Positions 1,496 to 44,707 of a DNA stretch of 64,000 bases are shown one piece after another; position 1 is the first letter of the stretch, and each line of letters starts with the position of its first letter. Position numbers and translations under genes: made by a program. The stretch is from NCBI RefSeq assembly GCF_018389385.1, contig NZ_CP062698.1, positions 2,049,501-2,113,500 of the forward strand, read 5' to 3'. The DNA is from Anthocerotibacter panamensis C109 (lineage in GTDB: Bacteria; Cyanobacteriota; Cyanobacteriia; Gloeobacterales; Anthocerotibacteraceae). Below the pieces are notes generated by a model that worked only from the letters and a program-made list of their open reading frames with translations, made no database searches and was not told where the DNA came from.

Positions 1496-1635
1496 GTGGC
1501 CTTACCTAACCATATATTTAGAAGAATTAGCGCGTGACGAACTATATTTAGTGTCATAATCCACTATTCTGATAAATAAGTCAGGCTCTCCCCAGCGGGT
1601 TATATTTGATAGGCTCTGGCCCGGTCGAGGTGGAA

Positions 1636-25066: not shown

Positions 25067-25119
25067 GGGGTACTGAGGCACTACAGATCTGTTGTACCGC
25101 GAGTCCGGCCCCAAACTCC

Positions 25120-26286
25120 CTACTTCCTCCAGTTAGCTTGCGAATCGAGCCTGCCATTGACTACAGCCAAGTGGTAGATCTTTCCATCCAAGGCGCTGAA
25201 ATATAACTCGTTCTGACGGTCTATGCCAAAGGAAGTAATCTTCAAATCGGTCTGGAGCAGTTCTCGCCTTTGCCGATTCTCATTATCGAAGGCCCAAATC
25301 CGACCGGAGCCGAAATCAGCGAAGATGTACGCCCCGACGAGTTGGGCAAGACGCTGCCCCCGATAGACATAGCCCCCGGTGATGGAGGTACCCAAGTCGT
25401 GCCCGTACTCAGTGATGGGGGCAGTATAGTCTTGGGGGAGACAACCGGGCCTGTAGCAGGTGCTTCCCTCTTGGAGGTTCCAGCCGTAGTTTTGACCTTT
25501 TTCGATGAGGTCCACTTCTTCGACAGCATCCTGACCCACATCCGCCAGCCAGAGCCTGCCGGTGGGCGGATCAAAGCTGAAGCGCCAGGGGTTGCGCAGA
25601 CCATAGGCGTAGATTTCTTCGCGATAGCCTTGGGTATTTCCGACCAAGGGATTGTCTGGAGGAATGCCATAGTTCTTGCCAGCGGCGGGGTTATCGACGT
25701 CAATACGCAGCAGTTTTCCGAGTAAGGTGGCGCGGTTTTGAGCATTGCCTAAGGGATCGCCTCCTGAGCCCCCGTCCCCCAGCCCAATATAGAGATAGCC
25801 ATCAGGACCGAAGGCTAACTGTCCCCCGTTGTGGTTGGCGTAGGGTTGGTCAATGGTCAGGAGGATAGATTCGCTCGCGGGATTAGCCCGGTTGGGATCG
25901 CCGGGGTCCACTTGATAGCGGGCAATCACCGTGCGGCGGGGGTTGTCTGCGGTGTAGTTGAGGTAGAAGTAGCCGTTTTGGGCGTAGTCGGGGTGAAAGG
26001 CGAGCCCCAACAGCCCCAATTCTCCCCCGGCTAATACCCGGTCTCCCAAGTCGAGAAATACCCCTGCCTGTTGCGCCGCAGGCGTGTTGGCGAAGACCCG
26101 GATTTGCCCCCCTTGTTCGACGACCAAGAGCCGCTCGCTCCCGTCAGGGGGGTGCTGAATATCCAACGGATTGGTAAACGTGAGGTTGGAGAAAGCAGGC
26201 TCCACGCGTAGCGGGCTTTGCGCGAGTGCAGCAGCAGAAATGGCCAGCCCGCCCAAAGTCAGTAAACCCATTAAGAAGTGGCGCAT
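25120..26286 (-). CDS. Exported PQQ-dependent sugar dehydrogenase (GDH/sorbosone type)
   Basis: A 388-residue six-bladed beta-propeller protein. ATG 26286 starts a signal peptide (MRHFLMGLLTLGGLAISAAALAQ). Family motifs include LGLAFHPDYAQNGYFYLNY, NHNGGQLAFGPDGYLYIGLGDGG with the catalytic His, IYAYGLRNPWRFSFDP and GDPNRANPASE. Members oxidise aldoses, or sorbosone, in the periplasm with PQQ, but many cyanobacteria lack PQQ synthesis and the true role is often unknown. Two Cys in the STCYRPGCLPQ loop may form a disulfide. Confidence 0.92.
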   Translation of the reverse strand: MRHFLMGLLTLGGLAISAAALAQSPLRVEPAFSNLTFTNPLDIQHPPDGSERLLVVEQGGQIRVFANTPAAQQAGVFLDLGDRVLAGGELGLLGLAFHPDYAQNGYFYLNYTADNPRRTVIARYQVDPGDPNRANPASESILLTIDQPYANHNGGQLAFGPDGYLYIGLGDGGSGGDPLGNAQNRATLLGKLLRIDVDNPAAGKNYGIPPDNPLVGNTQGYREEIYAYGLRNPWRFSFDPPTGRLWLADVGQDAVEEVDLIEKGQNYGWNLQEGSTCYRPGCLPQDYTAPITEYGHDLGTSITGGYVYRGQRLAQLVGAYIFADFGSGRIWAFDNENRQRRELLQTDLKITSFGIDRQNELYFSALDGKIYHLAVVNGRLDSQANWRK

Positions 26287-26389
26287 AGTGCTAGCAGTCA
26301 GTGCAGATCTACCCTGCACCAATCGCTCCCAACGGACAACCGCCGGGAGGAGCAATAGGTAGCATCGATTTTATGCCGCACGCCAGTCT

Positions 26390-27010
26390 TTAGACGTGTA
26401 GATTCCTGCGCTGCTTATTTTTGAAGCGAGAAGCAGTCCCCCAGCCGCCAAGGACGCAGAGCCCCAGCAGTGTCGCGGGCTCCGGGACACGCCGGATCTG
26501 CAACTGATAGCGGAAGTTTGAATCACCGCCGCCAGTGAAGATGCCGTTGCCTCCATTGAGCGGGTCACCCGGGTCGCCAAAACCAGAGACTGCGACGAAA
26601 TACGTGCCTGAGTTTTGGATCAAAAAAGCACTGATGAGCGAAGAGGCATCCACCCCAGAGTCGTCATCGAATTGCACAAGCCCGCCCTGAGGGTCGTAGA
26701 GGGCCAGAATAGTATCTCGGTTGGAGGAGCCCAAGGCTTGGAGGACAGAGGTCTCTACATCGAAGAGGTCCCCTGCTGCGGCAAAAAACGAATAGTAATC
26801 CGCCGTATCATTGGGGGGAGTGCCCTGAAACGTCGTATTGTTTTTGGTTCCGATTACATTGATGGTGCTATCGGAGGAATTTAGGAATTGGGCTGTGGCG
26901 ATGGAGTCGTTTGGCTCAAGTTCGGTAAAAGTAGCAGCCCCCGCAGGATTTCCCCAAAGTAGGCTTGCTCCAAGTACGACTGCGACCAGCCCTTCGCATA
27001 AATACTTCAC
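26390..27010 (-). CDS. PEP-CTERM sorted exported protein with PPC-like domain
   Basis: A 206-residue protein with a GTG start and an N-terminal signal peptide ending near AGAA. The mature part (ELEPNDSIATAQFL ... DTADYYSFFAAAGDLFDVET ... GTYFVAVSGFGDPGDP) fits a bacterial pre-peptidase C-terminal (PPC) domain. The end has the full PEP-CTERM layout: RVPEPATLLGL, a hydrophobic stretch and a basic tail (RFKNKQRRN). This directs exosortase-dependent sorting; no exosortase gene lies in the window. It is divergent from phoD. Confidence 0.88.
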   Translation of the reverse strand: MKYLCEGLVAVVLGASLLWGNPAGAATFTELEPNDSIATAQFLNSSDSTINVIGTKNNTTFQGTPPNDTADYYSFFAAAGDLFDVETSVLQALGSSNRDTILALYDPQGGLVQFDDDSGVDASSLISAFLIQNSGTYFVAVSGFGDPGDPLNGGNGIFTGGGDSNFRYQLQIRRVPEPATLLGLCVLGGWGTASRFKNKQRRNLHV

Positions 27011-27087
27011 TGCGCACCCTCACGTATCTCGAAGGCAGTCTAGGGCAAGGAAATTAACGTCGTGTTAAGGAGCCCGAGCAACGTCTT

Positions 27088-27136
27088 CTTAACCAAACAC
27101 TAATATCTTCTTAATGTTGGCTCAGTTAAATATAAC
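27088..27136 (+). promoter_or_regulatory. Candidate Pho box and -10 element of phoD
   Basis: Three 8-nt units at 11-nt spacing (CTTAACCA at 27088, ACTAATAT at 27099, CTTAATGT at 27110) match the PhoB/SphR repeat pattern YTTAAYYW at 8, 5 and 7 of 8 positions. A TATAAC at 27131-27136 lies 13 nt after the last unit, and the phoD ATG follows 22 nt later. The geometry is that of an SphR-activated promoter. Confidence 0.6.
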
Positions 27137-27158
27137 CTGCACTCCAGACAGGTTTGAG

Positions 27159-28850
27159 ATGAAGCGACGTGAGGCGGGTATATCTATACTTGGTTTTTCA
27201 TTCCTGGCAACGGCACCCGCTCGGGCCAACACCCCTCTGCCTGCAACCCTGCCCAATGGCGTTGCCGCCGGGGATGTCACCCAAACCTCTGCTGTGCTCT
27301 GGACACGCAGTACGATTGCCGGCAATGTGACTTTTGAGTACGGTACCGACCCCAGTTTCACCGTCGCCCAACGCCTCACCAAGCGCAACACCATCCCCAG
27401 CAAACCCTTCAAACTTCCGGTGCAGGGCCTGACCCCGGACAATACTTATTTCTATCGGGTGACCAACACCGCAGGCGACCAAGCCACGGGTACCTTCCGC
27501 ACCCCCGCAGCCTCGGGCTTTCAGGGCATGCGCTTTGGGATATCGGGCGACTGGCGCGGCGAACTGAGCCCCTATCCGGCTATCCGCAATGTCCCTGGAC
27601 GCGACCTAGATTTCTTTGTCGAATTTGGCGATACCATCTACGCTGACTTCCCTTCACCGGCGGTGCCCCTCGCTCAGACCTCGACGATTAGCCAATTCCG
27701 AGCCAAGCACAACGAAGTCTACAGCGCCCGCTTTGGCCTCAATACTTGGGCGGACCTCCGAGCCACGACCGCCATCTTCTCGGTCATTGACGACCACGAA
27801 GTGACAGATAACTTTGCCGGGGGTGCACCTCCAGCCTCGGACACGCGCTTTGCCGGTCAAGCAGGGAATTTTATCAACGAAACCACGCTGTATAACAACG
27901 GCTTGCAGGTCTTCCAGGAATTCAACCCGATCCGCAACGAGTACTACGGGGAAACAGGCGACCCCCGGACAGCCAACAAGCGTAAACTCTATCGCTTCCG
28001 CACTTTTGGTCAGGACGCGGCCATGTTTCTGCTGGACACCCGTTCTTTCCGCGACCAAGAGCTAACCCCGATCACCAACCCGCTCGACCCGGCGCAGATC
28101 GGAGCGTTCCTCACTGCTGCTTTTAACCCCGCCCGGACCATCTTAGGGGCGCAACAACTGTCAGATCTCCAAAATGACCTACAAGCGGCCCAGCAAGCGG
28201 GCATCACCTGGAAATTCGTACTGGTCCCCGAACCCATCCAGAACCTGGGTATCCTGGGCGCTGAGGACCGCTTTGAGGGCTATGCGGCGGAGCGGACGGC
28301 CCTGCTGAGTTTCATTGCCACCAATAACATCACTAACGTCGTCTTTGTCACTGCTGACATCCACGGCACGGTGATTAACGATGTCTCCTACCAAACGGCC
28401 CCCTTCGGCCCTTCGATTCCCACCGGGGCCTTTGAGATCTCTACTGGGTCCGTGGCTTTTGACGCGCCCTTCGGTCCGACAGTGGCCTTTCTGGCCTTTG
28501 TCCTCCAATTTCCGGGAGCCCTCTCCCCCACCGTCTATGCAGCACTGCCCCCTGCCAGCCAGGAAGCCTACATCACCGGGCTCATCAATGGCGGGCTCAC
28601 GGGGCTGGGCTATCCTGCGATTGGGTTGGACGGCTTTGCTCCTGCCACGCTGGTATCGGGTGGCTACACTGCCACCAACAGCTACGGTTGGACCGAGTTC
28701 GATATCGATCAGGCTACACAGGTACTCACAGTCACAACCTACGGCATCCCCTTCTACACCCAAGCCCAAATCGAAAACCCTACCACCCAAGCCGAGGTCC
28801 TCAGTCGCGTGCCTGCTATCTTGAGCCAGTTTACTGTCCAGCCTGTGTAG
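27159..28850 (+). CDS. phoD: PhoD-type alkaline phosphatase/phosphodiesterase
   Basis: A 563-residue exported metallophosphatase. ATG 27159 starts a signal peptide (MKRREAGISILGFSFLATAPARA) with a twin Arg pair suggestive of Tat export, as in other PhoD proteins. An N-terminal fibronectin-like domain (TSAVLWTRST, LTPDNTYFYRVTN) precedes the catalytic part: GISGDWRGEL, VEFGDTIYAD, FSVIDDHEVTDNF and VTADIHG hold the metal ligands. It would release phosphate from esters when phosphate is short, consistent with the Pho box upstream. Confidence 0.95.
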   Translation: MKRREAGISILGFSFLATAPARANTPLPATLPNGVAAGDVTQTSAVLWTRSTIAGNVTFEYGTDPSFTVAQRLTKRNTIPSKPFKLPVQGLTPDNTYFYRVTNTAGDQATGTFRTPAASGFQGMRFGISGDWRGELSPYPAIRNVPGRDLDFFVEFGDTIYADFPSPAVPLAQTSTISQFRAKHNEVYSARFGLNTWADLRATTAIFSVIDDHEVTDNFAGGAPPASDTRFAGQAGNFINETTLYNNGLQVFQEFNPIRNEYYGETGDPRTANKRKLYRFRTFGQDAAMFLLDTRSFRDQELTPITNPLDPAQIGAFLTAAFNPARTILGAQQLSDLQNDLQAAQQAGITWKFVLVPEPIQNLGILGAEDRFEGYAAERTALLSFIATNNITNVVFVTADIHGTVINDVSYQTAPFGPSIPTGAFEISTGSVAFDAPFGPTVAFLAFVLQFPGALSPTVYAALPPASQEAYITGLINGGLTGLGYPAIGLDGFAPATLVSGGYTATNSYGWTEFDIDQATQVLTVTTYGIPFYTQAQIENPTTQAEVLSRVPAILSQFTVQPV

Positions 28851-28920
28851 CAACCGCCCCAGATATCGCTGCCGCCCTGACCAGACGCTAAAATTCTTCA
28901 AGCGTACATAGGTCTTAAGC

Positions 28921-31053
28921 ATGAAGAAAGTGTGGCGACGGTTAAACCTAGGGGTGAGCGGTATTCTGCTCTTGGCGAGTTGTCTGGTAAATCCGGTTTG
29001 GGCTGTAGAACCGCGCCTGATCACCCAAATGGATTTGCTGGATTTCACTTGGCTCGCCGACCCGCAGATTAGCCCGGACGGCTCGCGCATCGTCTATCTC
29101 CAAGTCACTGCCGACCGCAAAAAAGATGGCTACCAGACTGCGCTATGGCTCGCCTCGACTGCCGGGGGACCGCCGCGCCCCTTGACGGGCGGCGGACGGG
29201 ACTCCACCCCGCGTTGGTCGCCCGATGGCCGCCAGATTGCTTTCCTGCGCGTAGCCGAAAAAGACGGTAAACCCACCGCCGCCCAAGTCTATCTGCTCTC
29301 CCTTGATGGGGGAGAGGCCCAAGCCCTGACGGATCTGCCTGAAGGCGTCGGAGCCCCGGTCTGGTCCCCAGACGGTAGACAGATCGCCTTCACCTCTGGC
29401 ACCCTACCTGAAGACCTGGACGAGAAAAAAGAAAAACCCGAGCATGAGAGCGACGTGCGGGTCGTCACCCAGGCTATCTACCGCTTTGACAATGGGGGCT
29501 ACTTGGACTTCAGCCGCAAGGACCACCTGTGGACCGTGCAGCTACCCGCCACCCCCAGTACCAAAGTCAAACCCAAACCCATCACCACAGGCAAATTCGA
29601 TGAAGGGATGCTCCGGTGGTCTCCAGATGGCACTAAAATCTATTTCCTCACCGACCGCGCCTCCGAACCCTCCTACCATGAGCCTGACACCGACCTCTAC
29701 GCCATCAGCGCCCAAGGCGGACCCATCACCAAAGTGGTAGACATCGATGGCCCGGTCGGGAACTACACCCTGAGCCCTGATGGCAAACGGGTCGCCTTCG
29801 TCGGCTTCCTCAACCACAAACCCACCCGCTCCTACAACCAGACCGACCTCTTCGTCGCAGACCTCACTCCGGGCGCAGCCGTCAAAAACCTGACGGCTGC
29901 CTACGATTACGACATCACCGACAATCTGTCCGCCGACCAGCATTCCCCCCGTGGCGGACAACCTGCCGACCCTGTGTGGAGTCAAGATGGACGTTTCGTC
30001 TATATCGTGGGGAGCGAAAAAGGTACTGCCAACCTCAAGCGCATCGATGCCGAAACGGGTCAGGTAGCGCCCTTCACTCAGGGCGACCAGGAAGTGCTCT
30101 CCTACACCGCCACTCCAGACGCCTCGAAGATGGCCCTGATTGTGACCAGCCCGACCAACATCAATGACCTCTACCTAACCAGCAACGGCGACCTGACCCA
30201 ACGTACCCAGGTCAACAAACCCCTTTTCGACCGGCTCCAAATCAGTACCCCTGAAGCCATCACCTACCCTAGTTTCGACGGGCAACTGATCCAAGCTTGG
30301 GTGCTCAAACCGCCCGGATTTGACCCCAAAAAGAAATATCCCCTCATCCTCAACATCCACGGTGGTCCCCACATCGCCTATGGCTATACTTTTTTTCATG
30401 AGTTTCAATGGATGGCTGCCAAGGGCTACGTCGTCCTCTACCCCAATCCCCGTGGCAGTACCACCTACGGTCAAGATTTTGGCAATATCATCCAGTACCG
30501 CTATCCCGGCGACGACTACAAAGACCTGATGGCGGGTGTGGATTACCTCCTCGGTCAGGGCTATATCGATGCCAAACGTCTGGGTGTGACCGGAGGCAGC
30601 GGCGGGGGGCTGCTCACTAACTGGACGATTACCCAGACCAACCGCTTCCAAGCGGCGGTATCGCAGCGCTCTATCGCTGACTGGGCTTCGTGGTGGTATT
30701 CAGCCGATTTCACCTTGTTCCAGCCTTCTTGGTTCCGAGGGGCTCCCTTTCAGGAAACGGCTAATTTCGCCGCTCGTTCTCCCATCACCTACATCGATAA
30801 AGTCCAGACCCCCTTGATGCTCATCGAAGGGGAGGCGGATTACCGGACCCCCTCTGGCTCGGGGGGAGAAACCATGTTCCGAGCGCTCAAATACCTCAAA
30901 AAACCCACTGCCATGGTGCGCTTCCCCGGTGAGAGCCACGAACTCTCGCGCTCAGGCAAGCCTTGGCACCGAGTCGAACGGTTGGAGCACATCGTCAACT
31001 GGTTCGACAAGTATCTGCTGGGCAAAAAAATCGACCGCTACGACGTGCCTTGA
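28921..31053 (+). CDS. Exported S9 family (prolyl oligopeptidase-type) peptidase, copy 1
   Basis: A 710-residue serine peptidase with a signal peptide (about 1-27, ending VWA). Residues about 45-430 form a beta-propeller with WSPDGRQIAF repeats. The alpha/beta hydrolase domain then has ILNIHGGPH, the nucleophile in VTGGSGGGLLT, the Asp in EGEADYRTP and the His in FPGESHELSR, so the triad is complete. It belongs to the acylaminoacyl peptidase/DPP-like group. Its 3' end overlaps the convergent thiE gene by 16 nt. Confidence 0.94.
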   Translation: MKKVWRRLNLGVSGILLLASCLVNPVWAVEPRLITQMDLLDFTWLADPQISPDGSRIVYLQVTADRKKDGYQTALWLASTAGGPPRPLTGGGRDSTPRWSPDGRQIAFLRVAEKDGKPTAAQVYLLSLDGGEAQALTDLPEGVGAPVWSPDGRQIAFTSGTLPEDLDEKKEKPEHESDVRVVTQAIYRFDNGGYLDFSRKDHLWTVQLPATPSTKVKPKPITTGKFDEGMLRWSPDGTKIYFLTDRASEPSYHEPDTDLYAISAQGGPITKVVDIDGPVGNYTLSPDGKRVAFVGFLNHKPTRSYNQTDLFVADLTPGAAVKNLTAAYDYDITDNLSADQHSPRGGQPADPVWSQDGRFVYIVGSEKGTANLKRIDAETGQVAPFTQGDQEVLSYTATPDASKMALIVTSPTNINDLYLTSNGDLTQRTQVNKPLFDRLQISTPEAITYPSFDGQLIQAWVLKPPGFDPKKKYPLILNIHGGPHIAYGYTFFHEFQWMAAKGYVVLYPNPRGSTTYGQDFGNIIQYRYPGDDYKDLMAGVDYLLGQGYIDAKRLGVTGGSGGGLLTNWTITQTNRFQAAVSQRSIADWASWWYSADFTLFQPSWFRGAPFQETANFAARSPITYIDKVQTPLMLIEGEADYRTPSGSGGETMFRALKYLKKPTAMVRFPGESHELSRSGKPWHRVERLEHIVNWFDKYLLGKKIDRYDVP

Positions 31054-32057
31054 AGTTGGGTAAGCAGTTCCCGTGTGGCCTGTCTAGGGTCGGAGGCTGC
31101 CATGATAGCCCGCACAACAGCGACGCGCTGCGCTCCGGCAGCCTGTACCGTCGCGAGGTTGCTCTGGTCGATCCCCCCGATGGCAAAGCTAGGGATGGGG
31201 CTATGTTGGGCGCAATAGCGAACATAGTCCAGCCCGACAGGAATGCGCCCTGCTTTGGTGGGTGTCGCATAGACCGGGCCAACCCCAAGGTAGTCTGCAC
31301 CCTCGGCTATAGCCCGCTGCGCTTGTTGCGGGCTGTGGGTAGACTGACCGATGAGGGCGGTCGGGCCGAGGATGTGACGAGCAAGGCTGATAGGGGCGTC
31401 CTCCTGGCCTAGATGTACCCCATCCGCTTGGATAGCGAGGGCGAGATCAGGGCGGTCATTGAGTATGAAGAGGGCTCCGTAGCGGTCACAGAGCACGCGC
31501 AGGGCGCGACCAAGTTCTAGAATGCCCTGGGCGTCGCGGTCTTTTTCGCGCAGTTGGACCAGGGTCAGCCCACCAGCGAGCGCGGCTTCGACTTGGGTGA
31601 GTAGGTTGGAGCCGGGGCTCGTGACCAGATAGAGCAGACTGACTGCGAGGCGTTCACGAAGATCTGAGGGCAGGAGTTGCTGCTCCAGGATGTAGACCTG
31701 ATAGCGGTACTGCTTCATCTGGAGGGCAAAAGCGCTGTCATAGAGCTTGCCATACTCCTCTAGGACGCGTAGGGCTTCTTGGATGCGGCTGAGGTTGGCC
31801 CGCAAGACGGCCCGCAGGTCGCGGCGTTCGGTCTCCAAGGGCGTGGTGAGTCCGGTCCCCAAGTCGTGGGCGGTGTCGCGGTGCACCCGGATCTGATCGG
31901 TGTGCCAGGAGGCTAATTCTTGGCGCAAAAGCTTCACGGCCTCGCTCAGGCGGGCATCTTCCAGCCCGAAGCGGCACCACTCCTCAAGGACCCTTAGCCC
32001 CTCGCGGGCACGGTCGAGGTTGGCATCCAGAATACGCAAGACAACGTTACTTCTCAC
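31038..32057 (-). CDS. thiE: Thiamine phosphate synthase with N-terminal cyanobacterial extension
   Basis: A 339-residue protein. The C-terminal ~200 residues are ThiE: LVQLREKDRD, FILNDRPDLALAIQADGVHLGQEDA, IGQSTHS, YLGVGPVYATPTKAG and IPSFAIGGI match the pyrophosphate- and pyrimidine-binding motifs. The N-terminal ~140 residues (ILDANLDRAREGLRVLEEWCRF; LRANLSRIQEALRVLEEY) form a helical domain fused to ThiE in cyanobacteria. It joins thiazole and pyrimidine phosphates to make thiamine phosphate. The GTG start overlaps the previous gene by 11 nt. Confidence 0.95.
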   Translation of the reverse strand: MRSNVVLRILDANLDRAREGLRVLEEWCRFGLEDARLSEAVKLLRQELASWHTDQIRVHRDTAHDLGTGLTTPLETERRDLRAVLRANLSRIQEALRVLEEYGKLYDSAFALQMKQYRYQVYILEQQLLPSDLRERLAVSLLYLVTSPGSNLLTQVEAALAGGLTLVQLREKDRDAQGILELGRALRVLCDRYGALFILNDRPDLALAIQADGVHLGQEDAPISLARHILGPTALIGQSTHSPQQAQRAIAEGADYLGVGPVYATPTKAGRIPVGLDYVRYCAQHSPIPSFAIGGIDQSNLATVQAAGAQRVAVVRAIMAASDPRQATRELLTQLQGTS

Positions 32058-33084
32058 AAGACTTGCGCCAGACGCTCCAGGCTACATAGCTGAGGAGGAT
32101 GGTTGCTCCCGCTGTGTAGGTCCAGCCTGCCGGAAGCCCGGTCAGCGCCAGAGCGAGGCAGCCCGCCCACAGCGTCAGAGCATACATGGTCAAGACCGTG
32201 AAGCGGTGGGAGAGGCCGACTTTGAGGAGTTGGTGGTGCAGGTGCCGCTTGTCGGGCTTGAAGGGAGATTGACCTTTACTCAAGCGCTGAATGATCACCG
32301 AAGCGGTATCGAGAATGGGGACGCTAAGGATGAGCAGGGGGACAACAATAGCAGCCGTAGTGACTAGTTTTACTACCCCGATGACCGAGAGTCCAGCGAG
32401 CATAAAGCCTAGGAAATAAGCCCCGCCATCACCCATGAAGATCTGCGCCGGATTGAAATTGTAGCGCAAAAAGCCCAGCGCCGCCCCCGCCAGCGCCGCC
32501 GCAATCAAGGCTGCAGCCCACTGTTGGGTGAGTAGGGCGACTATCAACGTCACACAGGCGGCGATACCGCTGATACCCGCTGCGAGGCCATCCAGTCCAT
32601 CGATAAAGTTGATGGCATTGGTCACACCCACTAGCCACAGGAGCGTCAAAGGCAAACTGAGCACCCCTAACTGCCAAACCCCCAACCCAGGCAGGGAAAC
32701 CGCCTCGATTTGGACGCCTACAGTCCAAGCAGCCCAGGCGATAGCGCCTTGAGCAGCCAGACGCGGCAAGGCGGGCAGCGAGAAGAGGTCATCGGCTAGC
32801 CCCACCAAAAACATCAAAACCGATCCAATCGTCACGCCCCAGACTTCGTACTCTTTATCCGGCGGCAGCGTCCCAAACCAACCCAGCCCCCACACTAAAA
32901 GCAGGGCAGTAGTGACACCTGTAAAAATGGAGACCCCCCCCAGACGAACCATCGGTTGGGTGTGGACCTTGCGTTCGTTGGGTACATCTAGTTGACTGCT
33001 CCTGAGGCCGACAGCACGGACAGCCGGGGTTGTCCATAGGACCACCATCGCTGCACACAGAAACGCCACCAGGATATAGACCAC
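32047..33084 (-). CDS. WecA/TagO-like polyprenyl-phosphate sugar-1-phosphate transferase
   Basis: A 345-residue, roughly 10-helix membrane enzyme of the MraY/WecA superfamily. The Asp-rich motif VGLADDLFSLP, NAINFIDGLDGLAAGIS, FMGDGGAYFLGF and the C-terminal HLHHQLL are the catalytic and substrate-binding motifs. It transfers a HexNAc-1-phosphate to undecaprenyl phosphate, starting cell-surface polysaccharide. The HLHH motif favours the WecA/TagO side over MraY. The GTG start has GAGGAG upstream. It is first in a two-gene unit with thiE. Confidence 0.94.
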   Translation of the reverse strand: MVYILVAFLCAAMVVLWTTPAVRAVGLRSSQLDVPNERKVHTQPMVRLGGVSIFTGVTTALLLVWGLGWFGTLPPDKEYEVWGVTIGSVLMFLVGLADDLFSLPALPRLAAQGAIAWAAWTVGVQIEAVSLPGLGVWQLGVLSLPLTLLWLVGVTNAINFIDGLDGLAAGISGIAACVTLIVALLTQQWAAALIAAALAGAALGFLRYNFNPAQIFMGDGGAYFLGFMLAGLSVIGVVKLVTTAAIVVPLLILSVPILDTASVIIQRLSKGQSPFKPDKRHLHHQLLKVGLSHRFTVLTMYALTLWAGCLALALTGLPAGWTYTAGATILLSYVAWSVWRKSCEK

Positions 33085-33369
33085 TGCTTCTCCTCAGATG
33101 GACCGGGCAATAGCACCTGCGGCACCGTGCCGGAAACTCACCTAATTATGCTCGATTGCGCGGACCCTGCGGCACCGGGATCCCAAGTAAAATCTTTAGA
33201 CCGCTCTATAGCCGCGCACCACAGCCAATGGGAGACGAGGCTCCAAGGTCGAGACTTCGTTGGCTACAACCGTTCAGGCTAAAGGCTCCTGCCCAAAGTG
33301 TGATCCCATTGGACAGAATGAGCATTTATGCTTAAGATTTACAAAGCAAACGGTGAAACATACCCAGTC
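33085..33369. other. Divergent intergenic region, no gene seen
   Basis: Between the divergent transferase and prk genes I see no supported reading frame or RNA motif in this part; the prk promoter candidate follows it. Confidence 0.5.
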
Positions 33370-33399
33370 TTGTAACAAATGTTGCACTCCTGGTACTAT
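33370..33399 (+). promoter_or_regulatory. prk promoter candidate
   Basis: TTGTAA (33370-33375) and TACTAT (33394-33399) are 18 nt apart, with TGG just before the -10 (extended -10 form). The start would be about 50 nt before the prk ATG. Confidence 0.45.
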
Positions 33400-33455
33400 G
33401 AAGACGCCTACGCCTCGGTATGCACGCTTACACGCTGTTGGGAGAGTTTTGTCTC

Positions 33456-34445
33456 ATGGTCACCAAACCGGACCGGATTGTAATGATAGGTGTTGGGGGA
33501 GATAGTGGATGTGGAAAGTCCACATTCCTGCGCCGCCTGCGTGACTTATTCAGTGATGACCTGATCACGACCATCTGTCTCGATGACTATCATAGCCTGG
33601 ACCGGAAACAACGCAAGGTTACGGGCATCACGGCGCTTGACCCCCGAGCCAACAATTTTGACCTGATGGCCGAGCAGGTAGCCACCCTGAAGCGGGGGGA
33701 GCGCATTCAAAAGCCCATCTACAATCATGAGACCGGGGAGCTTGATCCACCTGAGGAGATTGTCCCGACCCCCATCATTATTATCGAGGGCCTGCATCCT
33801 TTTTACGATGAGCGTGTGCGCGACCTACTCGACTTCAAGATCTACTTCGACCTGAGCGATGCGATCAAAGTCCAATGGAAAGTCCAGCGCGATATGGCTG
33901 AGCGTGGGCACACGTACGACGATGTCATGAAGGCCATCAACTCCCGCAAGCCTGACTTTACCGCCTATATTGATCCTCAGAAGCAATTCGCTGATGTCAT
34001 TCTGGAGATCCTGCCTAGCGAATTGCCCGAGAAGCCCGGAGGTCTCAAGATCGTCAAAGCTCGTCTGGTGCAACAGGAAGGTAACCCAGTCTACGACCCA
34101 GCTTACCTCTTTGATAAAGCCATCTCAGACCTGTGCTGGCGGCCCAAATTTGATAACTCCGACCCTGAACTTACCTTCTGCTACGGTCAGGACCGCTACT
34201 TCAACAAGCACATCTCCTTTCTCTCTATCGATGGTGAGTTTCATCCCAAAGATGCCCACAACCTCGAAGAAAAACTGCGTAACACCTCCGAGCGCCACTA
34301 CGGCGAGTTGGCGAGTTTGGTGGTCAAGCGCACAGAGTTTCCGGGCTCCAATGATGGAACAGGTTTCTTCCAGGTGTTGATTGGGCTCAAGATGCGGGAG
34401 ATTTACCAAAAATTGACTACCCCCGCTTTAGTGACATCCAATTAA
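33456..34445 (+). CDS. prk: Phosphoribulokinase
   Basis: A 329-residue Calvin-cycle kinase making ribulose-1,5-bisphosphate. ATG 33456 gives the canonical N-terminus; an ATG at 33420 adds 12 residues without support. The P-loop GDSGCGKST contains Cys19, and Cys41 lies in ICLDDYHS; these are the N-terminal redox pair of oxygenic phototrophs. The usual C-terminal pair (CGRKLTC) is missing: the aligned stretch reads WRPKFDNSDPELTFCYG, with cysteines only at 227 and 242. The rest (LDPRANNFDL, YNHETGELDPPE, IEGLHPFYDERVRD, GTGFFQVLIGLKMR) is typical. tkt follows 63 nt downstream. Confidence 0.97.
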   Translation: MVTKPDRIVMIGVGGDSGCGKSTFLRRLRDLFSDDLITTICLDDYHSLDRKQRKVTGITALDPRANNFDLMAEQVATLKRGERIQKPIYNHETGELDPPEEIVPTPIIIIEGLHPFYDERVRDLLDFKIYFDLSDAIKVQWKVQRDMAERGHTYDDVMKAINSRKPDFTAYIDPQKQFADVILEILPSELPEKPGGLKIVKARLVQQEGNPVYDPAYLFDKAISDLCWRPKFDNSDPELTFCYGQDRYFNKHISFLSIDGEFHPKDAHNLEEKLRNTSERHYGELASLVVKRTEFPGSNDGTGFFQVLIGLKMREIYQKLTTPALVTSN

Positions 34446-34508
34446 ACTGCATGATGAGCGCCCCTCAAGGCGCGGATTCAGGGGCAGGTACATTCACAAG
34501 AGGTATCC

Positions 34509-36506
34509 ATGACGGCGACGCTTACCCCAAAAACCACTGAACGCCTTGACGAGTTGTGTATCAACTCCATCCGCTTCCTGGCTGTCGATGCGGTCCAAAA
34601 AGCCAATTCCGGCCACCCAGGTTTACCTATGGGATGCGCCCCCATGGCTTACGTGTTGTGGACGCAATTTCTCCAACACAATCCCTTAAACCCGAAATGG
34701 ACGAACCGGGACCGCTTTATTCTCTCGGCGGGCCATGGTTCGATGCTCCTCTACGGCCTGCTCCATCTGACGGGTTATGACCTGACGCTCGAAGACCTGA
34801 AGCAGTTTCGCCAATGGGGCAGCAAGACCCCCGGTCACCCGGAAAACTTCATGACCGCTGGGATCGAGACCACCACCGGCCCTCTGGGTCAGGGGGTAGG
34901 CAACGCTGTGGGTATGGCGATGGTCGAGGCGCATCTGGCGGCTAAATTCAACCGTCCCGGCTTCCCCATCGTGGAGCACTACACCTATGTGATTCTTGGC
35001 GATGGCTGCAATATGGAGGGTGTGGCCTCCGAGGCGGCGTCTCTAGGCGGGCACTTGGGCCTAGGTAAGCTCATCATGCTCTACGACGACAACCACATCT
35101 CCATTGATGGCGACACCGCTCTGGCCTTTACCGAGGATGTGGGTGCGCGTTACGAAGCCTATGGCTGGCATGTGCAGGTTGTCGCCGACGGCAATACGGA
35201 CCTGGTGGGTATTGCGAACGCCATTGAGGCGGCCAAAGCTGTCACTGATAAGCCCAGCCTGATTAAGATCCGCACGACTATTGGCTACGGCTCCCCCAAC
35301 AAAGCGGGGACCGAGGGCATTCACGGTTCTGCCCTAGGCGAAGCCGAGGTGAGCCTGACCAAGCAAAACCTGGGTTGGCCTTTGGAGCCGAAGTTCTATA
35401 TCCCGGATGAAGCGCTTCAGGAGTTCCGCAAGTCGTTGGCGAAAGGCGCTACGGCTGAGGCTGAGTGGAATGACCTCTTTGCTCGCTACAAGGCCGAGTA
35501 CCCTGAACTGGCTGCTGAGTATGAGCGGGTCACGACGACCACCCTCCCCGAAGGTTGGGCGGACGTTTTGCCCACCTACCAGCCCACGGATAAGCCCAAT
35601 GCCACGCGTAACCACTCGGGGATCTGCCTGAATGCCCTGGCAAAAACCCTGCCCGAACTGTTGGGCGGCTCGGCGGACCTCGCCCATTCCAACATGACCT
35701 ATCTCAAAGGCTTGCCTGATTATCAGTCGGGCTCCTACACCGGTCGCAATCTGCGCTTCGGGGTCCGGGAGCACGGTATGGCTGCCATTCTCAACGGTAT
35801 GGTTCTCCATAAGGGAGTCATTCCCTATGGCGCGACCTTCTTGGTCTTTTCGGACTATATGCGCGGGGCGATGCGTCTATCGGCTTTGGCGGGGCTAGGG
35901 GTACCTTATATCCTCACCCACGACTCTATTGGTCAGGGGGAAGATGGCCCGACCCACCAGCCCGTGGAAGTCATTCCTTCGCTCAGGGCCATCCCCGATA
36001 TGCTTGTCATCCGTCCTGCTGACGGCAATGAGACTTCGGGAGCCTGGAAAATAGCGATTGAGAAGCGCGATACCCCGACCAGTCTGATCCTGACCCGTCA
36101 GCCGGTACCCAACCTGCCCGGTACTTCTATTGGTGCAGTGGCTTTGGGAGCCTACACCCTAGTGGACAGCGAAGGCACCCCCGACCTGATTTTGATTGCT
36201 ACCGGCTCTGAAGTGCAGCTAGCCCTCGAAGCCGCCAAGCAGCTTGATGCCAAAGTCCGGGTGGTCTCAATGCCTTCTTGGGAACTCTTCGAGGCTCAGC
36301 CTCAGGAGTACAAAGACTCAGTACTCCCGCCTGTAGTCACGAAACGGCTCTCCATCGAAGCAGCCTCCTCCTTTGGTTGGGCGAAGTATGCCAGTGCTCA
36401 CGTCAGCATTGATACTTTCGGAGCCTCCGCTCCCGGCGGCACCTGCATGAAGGAGTTCGGCTTCACAGTCGAGAACGTGGTGGCGAAAGCTAAAGCGTTA
36501 CTCTGA
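34509..36506 (+). CDS. tkt: Transketolase
   Basis: A 665-residue thiamine-diphosphate enzyme of the Calvin and pentose phosphate cycles. The ThDP motif runs from [18 protein letters not shown] to YDDNHIS; other markers are [41 protein letters not shown] and the [17 protein letters not shown] segment. The length is canonical. It lies 63 nt after prk and ends in an intrinsic terminator, so prk-tkt probably form one unit supplying and using pentose phosphates. Confidence 0.98.
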
Positions 36507-36525
36507 ATTCCTGCCACAACTTTAT

Positions 36526-36559
36526 AAAAGGGCTCCTGGTTCGCTGGGAGCCCTTTTTT
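36526..36559 (+). terminator. Intrinsic terminator of tkt
   Basis: An 11-bp stem (AAAAGGGCTCC with GGAGCCCTTTT) and a 10-nt loop is followed by a T run, 20 nt after the tkt stop. Confidence 0.9.
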
Positions 36560-36832
36560 GTAAGATGAGTGCTGATTCGCTGGAGGACTGTAGACCTTGC
36601 CTTGAGCAAGTCTCCCTTAATCATTGAACTGAATTCATCGCGCAGTTTGAGAACGTAACTATTTACCAAATTTTGGTATCTTTGGCTAAATCTGCCTCAT
36701 TTGAAATCGCTGGACAAAAACTGCGCTTTTCAAGGTAAACGGGAGTATCATTTCTTTACTTAGCGGCTTCGGCTGTATGGAGCAGTTCACTTCAACACCT
36801 AGCCTTGTTATGGGTAGGTGTGCTATTCCTGC
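36560..36832. other. Intergenic region between tkt terminator and gntK
   Basis: No gene seen. A weak inverted repeat (ACACCTA at 36795-36801, TAGGTGT at 36815-36821) lies just past the gntK stop and may end that transcript. Confidence 0.4.
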
Positions 36833-37321
36833 CTAAATATTCAACCCCCGGCGAATTTCCTGGACAATCGCTTCCGGGGTCAGACTGATATCGATAGCAA
36901 GGGCATCAGTAGGTTCTTCTAGGGCATCGAACTGGCTTTGGAGCAGGGAGTCAGGCATAAAGTGGCCTTGACGCTGGACGAGGCGGGCTTGGATTAGAGC
37001 AAAGCTGCCATGCAGATAGACGAAGCACACCCGGTCGGACTGGAGCAGGTTCCGGTACTGCGCTTTGAGAGCAGAGCAGGCGAGAACAGTCTTGCGGTTT
37101 TCGTTCAGCCAGACCGTAATTGCAGCTTTGAGGACGTCTAGCCATCCGGCGCGGTCTTGGTCTGTGAGCGGGATACCCCGCTGCATCTTTTCGATATTGG
37201 CGGCGGGGTGAACATCGTCGGCATCGCTAAATTCCCAGCCTAAAGCCTCAGCTAGCATCCGACCAACGGTAGTTTTCCCCGACCCGGTAACCCCTATTAC
37301 AACGATGACGGTGATAGGCAT
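36833..37321 (-). CDS. gntK: Gluconokinase
   Basis: A 162-residue GntK-type kinase phosphorylating gluconate to 6-phosphogluconate. ATG 37321 starts just before the P-loop (VIGVTGSGKTT); a longer frame upstream would overlap the divergent gene. DADDVHPAANIEKMQRGIPLTDQDR, VLACSALKAQYR and GHFMPDSLLQSQFDALEEP are family motifs. Full length for the family. It is divergent from an exported protein with 70 nt between start codons. Confidence 0.95.
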   Translation of the reverse strand: MPITVIVVIGVTGSGKTTVGRMLAEALGWEFSDADDVHPAANIEKMQRGIPLTDQDRAGWLDVLKAAITVWLNENRKTVLACSALKAQYRNLLQSDRVCFVYLHGSFALIQARLVQRQGHFMPDSLLQSQFDALEEPTDALAIDISLTPEAIVQEIRRGLNI

Positions 37322-37391
37322 GGGTCTATCTAGCTCCAATGCGGTGGGCAGGGGGACGGTAAAATGGACAAGTCTTGTCAGAAGTTCCCCC

Positions 37392-37766
37392 ATGAAAAAG
37401 CTACTAGTCCTCAGCCTATCGCTGGCTCTGGCTCAACCACTCCCGGCTCAAGTGCAAGCTTTTGTACGCAGCGAGGTAGATCAGGCTCAAGCTTATATTA
37501 ACGAGATTTGTGTCCAGGAGTTGCGTGGAACCTGTCAGGCATCTTTCACTGGAGAAAAGCTTCTGATTCTCCCCGACAGTAATCTGAGCGCCTGTATTAA
37601 GTCACTGGAGGAAAAAGACTTCAGTTGTCCTGGAGACTATGCCAAACAAGGGGTCATCAAGATGTTGGATGTGATCCAGCGGCGGGCACGCAATATTGCA
37701 CGCGGGCTACAGATTGAAATCGTCATTGACGGCAAACCCTTCTTTACAAGGACACGTCAACGCTGA
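37392..37766 (+). CDS. Exported protein of unknown function
   Basis: A 124-residue protein with a clear signal peptide (MKKLLVLSLSLALAQPLPAQVQA), which fixes the start at ATG 37392. The mature part has four cysteines (CVQ, CQA, CIK, CPG), enough for two disulfides, and ends basic (FFTRTRQR). No family recognised. It shares its short upstream region with gntK. Confidence 0.75.
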   Translation: MKKLLVLSLSLALAQPLPAQVQAFVRSEVDQAQAYINEICVQELRGTCQASFTGEKLLILPDSNLSACIKSLEEKDFSCPGDYAKQGVIKMLDVIQRRARNIARGLQIEIVIDGKPFFTRTRQR

Positions 37767-37872
37767 TCCTCTTCACGCTGTCTCTATCAGGAGCATACTC
37801 AAGCTAGGGCTGTGGGATTAAAAAATAAACTGATCTAAAAGTGGATTTCTTAAAAAAATAATCTAATTCTGT

Positions 37873-37878
37873 TACAAT
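37873..37878 (+). promoter_or_regulatory. leuA -10 element candidate
   Basis: TACAAT preceded by TGT (extended -10) lies at 37873-37878. It overlaps an in-frame ATG at 37877, arguing that translation begins at the later ATG, 37907. Confidence 0.4.
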
Positions 37879-37906
37879 GGCGACCATCCAAGTTCACCCC
37901 TTAGCC

Positions 37907-39526
37907 ATGACTGCTTCAGTACCTACGGCCCAACCGGAACACGTCCTGATTTTCGATACCACCCTGCGTGATGGCGAGCAGTGCCCCGGCGCAACGCTCA
38001 ACACGCCTGAGAAGTTGGAAGTAGCCCGCCAACTAGCTCGACTTGGGGTGGACATCATCGAAGCAGGCTTTCCCTTTGCCAGCCCAGGGGATTTTGAAGC
38101 GGTGCGGCTCATTGCCGAGCAGGTCCAAGGACCGATCATCTGCGGCCTCGCCCGCGCCCTGCCGGGGGATATCAAGCGTTGTGCCGAAGCTGTAGCCCCA
38201 GCGAGCCGCCGCCGGATACATACTTTTCTTTCGACTTCGGATATTCATCTGCAATATCAGTTGCGCAAAACCCGCGCTGAAGTCCTAGCTATTGCCGCAG
38301 AGATGGTTGGCTACAGTCGTTCTCTGGTAGAGGACGTAGAATTTTCGCCCATGGATGCCGGACGCACCGAGCCAGAATTCCTCTATCGCGTCATTGAAGC
38401 AGCAATTCAGGCTGGAGCCAGAACCATCAATATCCCCGACACCGTAGGCTACACTACCCCGCAAGAATTTGGTCAGCTCATCGCAGGCATCCGGGCTAAC
38501 GTTCCGGGCATTGAAGGCGTAGTGCTCTCCGTCCACTGCCACAATGACCTTGGCCTCGCTGTTGCCAATTCCCTGGAGGCAGTCAAAAATGGGGTGCGTC
38601 AGATCGAGTGCACGATCAATGGCATCGGCGAACGGGCGGGGAATGCCTCTTTAGAAGAAATCGTCATGGCCCTTTTTGTCCGCCGCAACTACTTCAATCC
38701 CTATTTCGGGCGACCGGTCGCGTGTCAAGACCCGCTCACCCAGATCAAGACCCAGGAGATCTACCGTACCTCGCGCTTGGTCTCGAACCTGACCGGGATG
38801 CTCGTCCAGCCCAACAAGGCCATCGTCGGAGCCAATGCCTTCGCCCACGAGTCGGGCATCCATCAAGACGGTCTGCTCAAGAACAAGAACACCTATGAGA
38901 TCATGGATGCCCAGAGCATCGGGCTCACCGATAATACGTTGGTTTTGGGTAAACACTCGGGGCGGAATGCCTTCCGGTCACGGTTGGAGGAATTGGGCTA
39001 TCAACTCAGCGATGACGACCTCAATCGTGCTTTCCTGCGCTTCAAAGACTTAGCGGACAAAAAGAAGACCGTGAGCGACTGGGACCTAGAGGCCATCGTC
39101 AACGACGAACTGCGCGTTGCACCCCAAGCCTTTACCCTGGAGCGCGTCCAGGTGAGTTGCGGCGACCACGGGCTACCGACAGCTACGGTACAACTGCTGG
39201 GACCGGACGGTATTGAACTGGTGGATGCCGCTGTGGGTACCGGTCCAGTGGATGCGGTCTACAAGGCCATCAACCGCATTGTCCAAGTCCCCAATGAGCT
39301 GATCGAGTTCTCGGTCCAATCGGTCACTGCCGGGATTGATGCCATCGGGGAGGTCACGATCCGCCTGCGTCACAACCAGCAGACCTACAGCGGTCACAGT
39401 GCCAACACGGATATTATTGTCGCTTCGGCCCGCGCCTATATCAGCGCCCTCAACAAGCTCTACCAAACCCTCAAAGAAGGCTCCCAGCCCATGCTCCTCT
39501 CTCGCCAGGAAGCTAAAGAGGTCTAG
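37907..39526 (+). CDS. leuA: 2-isopropylmalate synthase
   Basis: A 539-residue enzyme condensing acetyl-CoA with 2-oxoisovalerate, the first step of leucine synthesis. The N-terminal TIM barrel has [14 protein letters not shown] (metal and substrate site), [14 protein letters not shown] with metal-binding His residues, and [15 protein letters not shown]. The C-terminal LeuA dimer domain (about 400-530), containing [15 protein letters not shown], mediates leucine feedback. A start at 37877 would add ten residues, but that ATG lies inside a -10 element. No attenuator or T-box was seen upstream. Confidence 0.96.
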
Positions 39527-39668
39527 GGTCAGGACCATTACTTGCGGGGAAATACAGGGAGCCGAGCGGTTCATCCTTTATCAAAATTACATAAAAACCC
39601 CTTCCCCGGAAGCTTGAGACCGAGTAATCTCAGTAGTATTACCCCCTCTTCGTCCCCGAGTGCTTCCC

Positions 39669-39818
39669 ATGATTACCTCCCCCGCTCCTTCTAACCGTAA
39701 ATTTACCGATCAGCAAAGGAAACCCGTCTCATCCATTTCTTGGCGGTTGTTAGGATTTTGGTTGAGCACCCATGTAATACTCATCTTTGTCCTGGCGCAC
39801 GTGCTGCATCTTTTATAA
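39669..39818 (+). CDS. Possible 49-residue single-pass membrane protein
   Basis: An open frame of 50 codons in the otherwise empty stretch after leuA. It encodes a polar, basic N-terminal half (SNRKFTDQQRKPVSS) and one hydrophobic helix (about residues 26-49, LLGFWLSTHVILIFVLAHVL) running to the C-terminus. There is no strong ribosome-binding site, only a GAG 9 nt upstream. Layout and composition fit a small membrane subunit, but I recognise no family. The rest of 39527-39974 shows only a short CTTCCCCGGAAG hairpin after leuA. Confidence 0.4.
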   Translation: MITSPAPSNRKFTDQQRKPVSSISWRLLGFWLSTHVILIFVLAHVLHLL

Positions 39819-39974
39819 AATCGGGATTGGCATCACACCAGAGCATGGCGACAAGTGCAGCGTTTAGCCATTAGAGAAAAAAGTTATCTTGACCAATCAC
39901 AGAAGAAAAGGGTCCTCTTTACTCAACAAGAGGTTCATCTTTCAAAGAAACACTTACTGGAATCGGAGATAGGT

Positions 39975-40631
39975 TTAGGGTTTGCGCTGCGATTGCTGCG
40001 CAGGAAGGAGCCCTGCAACAAGGTGCATATCCCACTGACAAAGGCCCAACAGAAGCAGGCAGACCGACATCATGGTACCCGTCCCCAGGAATTGCCAATC
40101 GCTCCAGGCATAAAAGATAGCAGCGCATAGACCGTGAAGGACCCCGGCGAGGACTAGAGCACGCGAGCGCAGCCTAACCCCGGTCCCCAGATAGCCAAGG
40201 GCACTTAAGGTCAACCACAACGGACCTAGATGGAGCACCACAGGTTCCCAGGCAGTGAGGATGCCCACGTTAGTGAGCATCAGCCCCAGCGCCAGGAGCC
40301 CCACCCAACCTGCCACCAACCCCACGACCCGCTCCGCCATCACCCAGCACCAGCACAGCGCCACCATCCCCACCGCCCCCAAAACCGTGCACAGCGACCA
40401 GACCACGGCCTGCACGGACCAGTCGAGGGCCAAAAATTGCGCCGTCCCGAAGATGAGTCCCGTCAGGAGCCCCCACCCCACAAAAACTTGGTCCACACGG
40501 GTGAAATCCGCCTCAAACAGCGTCACCCGCCCCAACCGCCACCGTATTTGCCATAACCCAATCAAGTCTGAGCAGTGAAGGACCACCTGTTTGCGGCGCA
40601 AAATAGGTTCAGTTGAACTGAAAAATGTCAT
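39975..40631 (-). CDS. Multi-pass membrane protein of unknown function
   Basis: A 218-residue protein with about six hydrophobic segments from residue 50 onward and a soluble N-terminal stretch (EPILRRKQVVLHCSDLIGLWQIRWRLGR). Glycine-, leucine- and tryptophan-rich helices carry no catalytic motif I can name. It probably represents a cyanobacterial conserved hypothetical family. It is divergent from the second S9 peptidase gene. Confidence 0.7.
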   Translation of the reverse strand: MTFFSSTEPILRRKQVVLHCSDLIGLWQIRWRLGRVTLFEADFTRVDQVFVGWGLLTGLIFGTAQFLALDWSVQAVVWSLCTVLGAVGMVALCWCWVMAERVVGLVAGWVGLLALGLMLTNVGILTAWEPVVLHLGPLWLTLSALGYLGTGVRLRSRALVLAGVLHGLCAAIFYAWSDWQFLGTGTMMSVCLLLLGLCQWDMHLVAGLLPAQQSQRKP

Positions 40632-40731
40632 CTGTCTTGGAGCGTAAATGTCTATAGCTTAACAAAAAAATACAATTCTCTATGGTATGCTCAAAAAAAT
40701 TTGGCTTGACCCCTACCGCTGGAGTAGTGTG

Positions 40732-42675
40732 ATGAAACGTGTATCCGTCGTTTTGGCGGCCCTTTTACTGATGTCTTCACCCTTGATTGCTTCGACTGGT
40801 GAGATTGTCCCCAACGAGAATTTAGTCGTTGATGGGATTCCCAAGATTCCGGCTACCCTGGCGGACACGGTTGGGCGCTATACCGAATTCCGCGCCGCAG
40901 GCTTCTTGAGCTGGCATCCGACCCGGCGTGAAATGCTCATCTCGACCCGCTTTGGAGACACCAATCAGGTCCATCAGGTGAAATTTCCCGGAGGAGACCG
41001 CAAGCAGCTCACCTTTTTCCCAGACCGAATTCAAGGAGCCTCCTACCCGCCCACCGGGGAGGCTGACTATTTCCTTTTTAATAAAGACACTGGGGGCAAT
41101 GAATTTAGCCAAATCTACCGCTATGACTTCACCACCGGGGCGGTCACCCTGCTGACCGATGGCAAATCGCGCAACAGCGGCGGGGTCTGGTCCACCCAAG
41201 GCAGCCAGGTGCTCTACACCTCCACCCGCCGCAACGGTAAGGACACCGACCTCTATATTATGGACCCCCGTGACCCCAAGACGGACCGACTCCTGACGGA
41301 GGTCGAGGGCGGGGGCTGGTTTCCGCTGGATTGGTCCCCGGATGACCGGACTGCCCTTGTCCAGGAATATGTCTCTATCAACGAGAGCTATCTCTGGCTC
41401 TTTGACACCACGACCGGAAAGAAGACTTTACTTACGCCCAAGGGTGGTCCTGAGAAGATTTCCTATGGTGCGGCGAAGTTCAGTCCCGACGGCAAGGGTC
41501 TCTATGTCACGAGTGATGCGGGCTCTGAGTTTCAGCGGCTCACCTACCGTCCCCTCAAGGGCGATGCTGCGGTGGTCCTGACTGCCAATATTGCCTGGGA
41601 TGTAGAAGACTTTGATCTTTCCCGCGATGGTAAATGGCTCGCCTTTGTCACCAATGAAGATGGGGTCAGCGTACTCCACATGCTCAATACGACTACCCGC
41701 AAAGAACAGGCGGTCCCCAAGCTACCCATCGGTGTCATCAATGGTCTCTCCTGGCACAAGGGGGGGGAAGACCTCGCCTTCAGTTTGGTCTCTGCTCGCT
41801 CCACCGCCGACGTATACACCCTCAATAGGGCAAAGGGCACCTTGGAACGCTGGACCGAAAGTGAGACCGGCGGGCTCAACACCACCACCTTCAGCACGCC
41901 TGAACTCATCCGCTGGCAAAGTTTTGATAACCGGCAGATCTCCGGTTTTCTCTATCGCCCATCCCCCAAGTTCACCGGCAAGCGCCCTGTCGTTATCGAT
42001 ATCCACGGCGGACCGGAGGGGCAGTATCGACCGGGCTTTTTGGGACGCACCAACTACTATCTCAATGAACTTGGGGTAGCCCGCATCTATCCGAACGTGC
42101 GCGGTTCTTCAGGCTATGGCAAGACCTTCCTCAAACTCGACAACGGAATCCTCCGGGAGGACTCAGTCAAGGATATCGGAGCACTCCTCGACTGGATCAA
42201 GACCCAACCGGACCTCGACAGTGACCGGGTGATGGTGACTGGGGGCAGCTACGGCGGCTATATGACGCTGGCGGTTGCCACCAACTACAACGACCGCATC
42301 TGTTGTTCTTTAGATGTGGTGGGCATCTCCAACTTCGTGACCTTCCTGGAGCGCACCGAGAGCTACCGTCGGGACTTGCGCCGGGTGGAGTACGGCGACG
42401 AACGCGACCCAGCCATGCGAGCATTCATGCTCAAGACTGCGCCTTTAAATAATGCCAGCAAAATCACCAAACCGCTCTTCGTCGTCCAAGGCAAAAACGA
42501 CCCCCGCGTGCCCATCAACGAAGCGGAACAGATGGTTGCCACGGTCAAGAAAAATGGCCGTGAGGTCTGGTATCTGGTCGCTAAAGATGAAGGTCATGGC
42601 TTCGCCAAAAAGAAAAACAGCGACTATCAGTTTTACGCGACGATTGCCTTTATGCAGGAGCATCTGTTGCAGTAG
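40732..42675 (+). CDS. Exported S9 family (prolyl oligopeptidase-type) peptidase, copy 2
   Basis: A 647-residue serine peptidase. ATG 40732 has GGAG at 7 nt and starts a signal peptide (MKRVSVVLAALLLMSSPLIAS). A beta-propeller region (FSPDGKGLYVTSD; WSPDDRTALVQ) precedes the hydrolase domain: VVIDIHGGPEGQYRPGF, the nucleophile in VTGGSYGGYMTL, the Asp in QGKNDPRVP and the His in KDEGHGFAKK. It is only distantly like the S9 peptidase at 28921 and probably has other substrates. Confidence 0.94.
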   Translation: MKRVSVVLAALLLMSSPLIASTGEIVPNENLVVDGIPKIPATLADTVGRYTEFRAAGFLSWHPTRREMLISTRFGDTNQVHQVKFPGGDRKQLTFFPDRIQGASYPPTGEADYFLFNKDTGGNEFSQIYRYDFTTGAVTLLTDGKSRNSGGVWSTQGSQVLYTSTRRNGKDTDLYIMDPRDPKTDRLLTEVEGGGWFPLDWSPDDRTALVQEYVSINESYLWLFDTTTGKKTLLTPKGGPEKISYGAAKFSPDGKGLYVTSDAGSEFQRLTYRPLKGDAAVVLTANIAWDVEDFDLSRDGKWLAFVTNEDGVSVLHMLNTTTRKEQAVPKLPIGVINGLSWHKGGEDLAFSLVSARSTADVYTLNRAKGTLERWTESETGGLNTTTFSTPELIRWQSFDNRQISGFLYRPSPKFTGKRPVVIDIHGGPEGQYRPGFLGRTNYYLNELGVARIYPNVRGSSGYGKTFLKLDNGILREDSVKDIGALLDWIKTQPDLDSDRVMVTGGSYGGYMTLAVATNYNDRICCSLDVVGISNFVTFLERTESYRRDLRRVEYGDERDPAMRAFMLKTAPLNNASKITKPLFVVQGKNDPRVPINEAEQMVATVKKNGREVWYLVAKDEGHGFAKKKNSDYQFYATIAFMQEHLLQ

Positions 42676-42692
42676 TGCTGTCGCGTTTAGGC

Positions 42693-44057: not shown

Positions 44058-44176
44058 TTCCCCCTCCAGAGCTTGCTCTATTGTTCAAGTTGGTGCTGAA
44101 GTGAGTATCCACCCTGAGAGGGACGGTCAGGAGGCTACAGGCAGCACTGCTTCACAGACCTTTGGGCAAGCGGCTG

Positions 44177-44656: not shown

Positions 44657-44707
44657 GTCGTTTTAACTAAATCGCGCCAAGAAACCGGGCTCTTTAAGAG
44701 GATATGC

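Follow-up and report, generated by a model that had tools for sequence, protein, structure and literature searches.

The prk locus

The window, a 64,000-nucleotide stretch of the Anthocerotibacter panamensis genome (a single contig of 4,187,797 bases), carries on its forward strand an open reading frame at positions 33456 to 34445 whose translation gives a phosphoribulokinase (PRK, gene prk) of 329 residues followed by a stop codon. An alternative in-frame ATG at 33420, 36 bases upstream, would add 12 residues, but comparison with homologs favours 33456 as the probable start. The protein scores 424.9 bits against the NCBIfam phosphoribulokinase profile PRK07429 (cut-off 236), matches the PF00485 domain, and is about 53-60% identical to cyanobacterial PRKs of solved structure; the T. 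elongatus PRK solved in complex with GAPDH and CP12 (6gve) matches at E 1.2e-131. A Foldseek search with the predicted fold places 6hzk (E 1.3e-41), 6kev and 6gve among the top matches and also finds the Arabidopsis and Chlamydomonas PRKs. The closest named relative is Candidatus Cyanaurora vandensis (Anthocerotibacteraceae), at 86% identity. The enzyme is an ordinary Calvin-cycle PRK of the Gloeobacterales, and a member of the order-wide loop variant described below.

Transketolase (tkt, 34509 to 36506) follows on the same strand, 63 bases 3' of prk. The two genes are adjacent wherever the DNA beyond prk was available in the Gloeobacterales, and at none of the crown loci examined, which suggests that prk and tkt (33456-36506), neighbours on one strand, form an order-specific Calvin-cycle gene pair. 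Within the spacer between them (34446-34508) lies a short inverted repeat (gcgcccctcaaggcgc) that might act as a weak terminator or attenuator; no Rfam families were found in window positions 25000-45000. The genome has a second PRK-family gene (L002, positions 1111-2109, reverse strand, 332 residues) of a cyanobacteria-specific PRK group, copies of which are carried by many cyanobacteria in the search. Structures of this group are deposited as 9qkn, 9qko and 9qkp. The paralog shares the PRK family kinase domain with the window PRK, the match being partial and only about 37% identical; the regulatory loop is missing from it, and residue 19 is Ala.

The C-terminal loop of PRK in the Gloeobacterales

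The translation holds exactly four cysteines, at residues 19, 41, 227 and 242, so that, as the first-pass annotation had it, C227 and C242 are the only ones outside the N-terminal pair. Cys19 (codon 33510-33512, forward strand, as are all codons given here), in the P-loop, and Cys41 (33576-33578) align with the classical N-terminal redox pair, as had been proposed, and both are cysteine in 78 of 78 crown sequences and in all eight Gloeobacterales in which this region can be read, the prk of one further genome (G002) being cut by a contig end. The class IA PRKs have in addition a C-terminal C-x5-C, typically CGRKLTC, and its reported absence is borne out by alignment with the T. elongatus PRK (6gve), the S. 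elongatus PRK (6kev/6hzk) and their relatives. Crown enzymes read W-x-P-C-G-R-K-L-T-C-S-Y-P-G where the window reads W-R-P-K-F-D-N-S-D-P; the aligned stretch is WRP, a gap of three residues, then KFDNSDPELTF. The Cys-Gly-Arg of CGRKLTC is deleted, with the junction between Pro230 and Lys231 (34145-34146), and where 78/78 crown sequences have the second cysteine of the pair the window has Asn234 (34155-34157), as do all Gloeobacterales.

Neither of the remaining cysteines occupies a canonical position. Those positions lie three and nine residues after an invariant tryptophan, whereas C227 (34134-34136) immediately precedes this residue, Trp228, and C242 (34179-34181) immediately precedes an invariant Tyr243-Gly244. 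These anchors rule out that C227 and C242 are a misaligned canonical pair. Both are cysteine in 9/9 Gloeobacterales and in none of the 78 crown sequences aligned in detail, which have D, N, H, Y, E or T at the first position and Y, F, H, S, A or N at the second.

The Gloeobacterales are the earliest-branching cyanobacteria, the sister group of all others. We compared nine species-level genomes of the order: that of the window (G000), Cyanaurora (G001), G002, four of one genus that we take as Gloeobacter (G003-G006), G007 and G008. All nine lack the canonical C-x5-C and have both C227 and C242, within a loop D-[LV]-C-W-[RK]-P-(8 residues)-[LI]-T-F-C-Y-G that occurs in none of 96 crown loci. In those 96 loci (80 and 16 from two sets, several of them near-identical), all of the same PRK type and all readable at the loop, the C-x5-C is preserved without exception. 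A DNA pattern for CGRKLTC matched in 259 of the 390 genomes of the class. Among sampled genomes that escaped this pattern, those in which a PRK of this type could be read through the loop have CGKKLTC, CGTKLTC, CGRRLTC, CGRQLTC or CNAKFTC there, and therefore keep both cysteines; in the other sampled negatives a protein check found the prk gene fragmentary or did not find it, and protein searches of two members of group f4 (G009, G033) gave nothing beyond distant PRK-like matches. The converse DNA pattern, for TFCYG, matched prk in 9/9 Gloeobacterales and elsewhere only scattered, chance-like places. The loop change is an order-wide trait of the Gloeobacterales and not an oddity of one strain. 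Identical loss in many well-regulated cyanobacterial PRKs, which the first-pass annotation had named as counting against its reading, is not seen in the crown loci examined, although all Gloeobacterales tested share the trait. An annotation or frame error is ruled out by the identical loop in nine genomes, and strain-specific decay by the order-wide occurrence together with synonymous codon variation, as the codons for Cys227 and Cys242 alternate between TGC and TGT while the cysteines are kept.

The invariance of C227 and C242 is by itself weak to modest evidence: the Gloeobacterales set is invariant at 62% of all positions and at 46% of those between 190 and 260. More telling is where the changes fall. 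Nine of the 22 Gloeobacterales-diagnostic residues lie within 222-242, against 1.4 expected (hypergeometric P about 8e-7 for a segment picked post hoc), and this clustering indicates that the loop has been specifically remodelled. Between residues 200 and 265 no crown PRK has a cysteine at any non-canonical position, and C227 and C242 bracket the same loop that lost the canonical pair. Invariant in the Gloeobacterales and never cysteine in the crown group, the pair therefore looks relocated, not lost.

CP12, GAPDH and FTR

The window genome encodes both CP12 and GAPDH. The CP12 of the window genome (L003, positions 1495-1719, reverse strand; PF02672, E 1.4e-30) has the AWD-VEEL core, here AWDAVEEL, and both cysteine pairs (CEIKGDGSKEC and CDSNPDAAEC), and a four-cysteine CP12 with this core is found in 9/9 Gloeobacterales genomes. 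As CP12 is intact, nothing here points to a loss of control by CP12. The single GAPDH of the window genome is Gap2-like and has the QRLLDASHRDLRR segment. On the PRK side, R50, R53 and K54 are invariant, R50 in the 78 crown and eight Gloeobacterales sequences; R50 corresponds to Chlamydomonas Arg64 by offset (Cys55 being Cys41) and not by residue-by-residue alignment. Work cited in PMC9406205 implicates Arg64 in the PRK-GAPDH complex. Short second CP12-like proteins are encoded in two genomes (L148 in G007, L149 in G008); these keep the N-terminal cysteine pair and lack the C-terminal, GAPDH-binding pair.

A search of the nine Gloeobacterales genomes for the catalytic subunit of ferredoxin-thioredoxin reductase (FTR) found it in five (G000, G001, G002, G006 and G008) and did not find it in G003, G004, G005 and G007. 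Genomes with and without FTR have the same loop, so the trait is not explained by FTR loss, and we discard such a link. Within the Gloeobacteraceae the subunit is found in two genomes (G006 and G008, the latter with 8% estimated contamination) and not in four, and a family-wide loss may therefore not be universal.

Possible roles of the C227/C242 pair

The lost pair lies at a well-studied site. In Anabaena and Arabidopsis PRK the C-terminal pair is the chief site of thioredoxin action, its oxidation partly inhibits the cyanobacterial enzyme, and formation of the GAPDH/CP12/PRK complex requires the C-terminal and not the N-terminal disulfide (Fukui et al. 2022, PMC9199185). In the Synechocystis PRK the potential of C229-C235 is near that of TrxA, which reduces the N-terminal pair minimally (PMC13214033). 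This published work agrees with the role in redox control and CP12 complex formation that had been stated for the second pair, and it makes the suggestion that the window PRK may be regulated differently a reasonable one; what that suggestion passed over is the invariance of C227 and C242, which it had treated as incidental.

Both pairs are conserved in class IA PRKs, the C-terminal one not in class IB (PMC9199185). The window PRK resembles the class IA enzymes of the beta-cyanobacteria Anabaena 7120, Synechocystis, S. elongatus and T. elongatus in sequence (about 55-60% identity across the full length), in fold, in Cys19/Cys41 and in the presence of CP12 in the genome, and differs from them in lacking the C-x5-C (CGR deleted, Asn for the second Cys) and in having the invariant C227 and C242. 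By literature description it is like the class IB enzymes of diatoms and other chromists in keeping the N-terminal pair and not the canonical C-terminal one, but differs from them in that two other cysteines stand in for the missing pair in the Gloeobacterales, whose CP12 has four cysteines; the CP12 studied in diatoms has two, and no PRK/GAPDH/CP12 complex is known there.

We modelled the window PRK with AlphaFold2 from 25 sequences (mean pLDDT 85.9). C227 falls in a predicted strand 226-228 and C242 in a predicted strand 240-248, equivalent to strands 224-226 and 240-249 of a canonical PRK modelled by the same procedure. If the two strands, whose partners the secondary structure does not name, pair in a hairpin register with a residue sum of 469, C227 would stand opposite C242. 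Such a site would probably be at the base of the hairpin, the canonical bond being at its tip, and as the geometry of the two differs the same effects on CP12 are not assured.

The reading we tentatively favour, with a probability of roughly 0.45, is that the C-terminal pair has been relocated in the Gloeobacterales and that C227 and C242 form an alternative, hairpin-bridging disulfide of similar role. We prefer it because the canonical pair is absent while CP12 keeps its PRK-facing cysteines. C227 and C242 would be opposed across the hairpin of strands 226-228 and 240-248; in the dark they would be oxidised to a disulfide, which would stiffen the loop otherwise braced by the canonical bond and permit CP12/GAPDH/PRK assembly, and in the light thioredoxin would reduce it. 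A possible switch of this kind has to be weighed against an outright loss of the C-terminal one, with C227 and C242 as buried structural or packing thiols and with control exerted only through C19-C41 and CP12 binding, complex formation then possibly being weaker or redox-independent. The missing canonical pair, the conserved N-terminal pair and CP12, and the many nearby residues that are invariant without a redox role are all compatible with such a loss, and a precedent is offered by the diatoms, whose PRKs are without the pair and in which the absence of a GAPDH/CP12/PRK complex has been ascribed to the absent PRK cysteines (PMC9406205, PMC7992989). Two new invariant cysteines would, however, be unexpected in a region where crown PRKs have only the canonical pair, and the Gloeobacterales CP12, unlike that of diatoms, retains the N-terminal cysteine pair that faces PRK. 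We regard simple loss as less likely, although a serious contender.

A C227-C242 bond might also be constitutive, structural or intersubunit, so that the hairpin is locked, PRK is always competent for CP12 and the redox state of CP12 is the sole switch. In the canonical enzyme this loop contacts the other subunit, and assembly of the complex is promoted by the disulfide within it (PMC9199185). The putative position at the base of the hairpin would likewise suit a stabilising bond. Stable disulfides are uncommon in the bacterial cytosol, which speaks against a static bond, and we consider this arrangement improbable.

If relocation is the correct reading, C227-C242 could be a second thioredoxin switch that evolved independently at this PRK loop, and the two sides of the deepest cyanobacterial split would then use alternative disulfides to shut down the Calvin cycle in the dark through CP12; for this stronger proposal we have less confidence, and put it forward as a speculative possibility. 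Compatible with any of these mechanisms is an origin in which the Gloeobacterales arrangement is ancestral and CGRKLTC arose on the stem of the thylakoid-bearing cyanobacteria. The Gloeobacterales PRKs form one fully supported clade in our tree, and the outgroup and paralogous PRKs compared have neither the loop nor either of the two pairs; replacement within the Gloeobacterales is, however, equally parsimonious, and the tree does not place the root. The stem branch of the clade is long, at 1.6 changes per column, and the outgroup PRKs, lacking the loop, do not polarise the change. We hold an ancestral Gloeobacterales arrangement to be plausible, at somewhat less than even odds.

A search of the literature, which was not exhaustive, found no mention of the Gloeobacterales PRK loop, and prk was not seen among the genes reported as transferred in a study of carbon metabolism in the order (PMC13237429). 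Relative to the literature searched, the loop is a new, order-wide variant of a well-studied PRK regulatory site. A 2022 review describes two conserved PRK cysteine pairs in oxygenic phototrophs (PMC9025218); a whole order breaks this rule and yet keeps CP12. The Gloeobacterales PRK thereby offers a natural experiment on whether GAPDH, CP12 and PRK can assemble only when the canonical C-terminal disulfide is there. The loop bears on the first origin of light/dark control of carbon fixation, and in the Gloeobacterales the light/dark switch of PRK may be differently wired.
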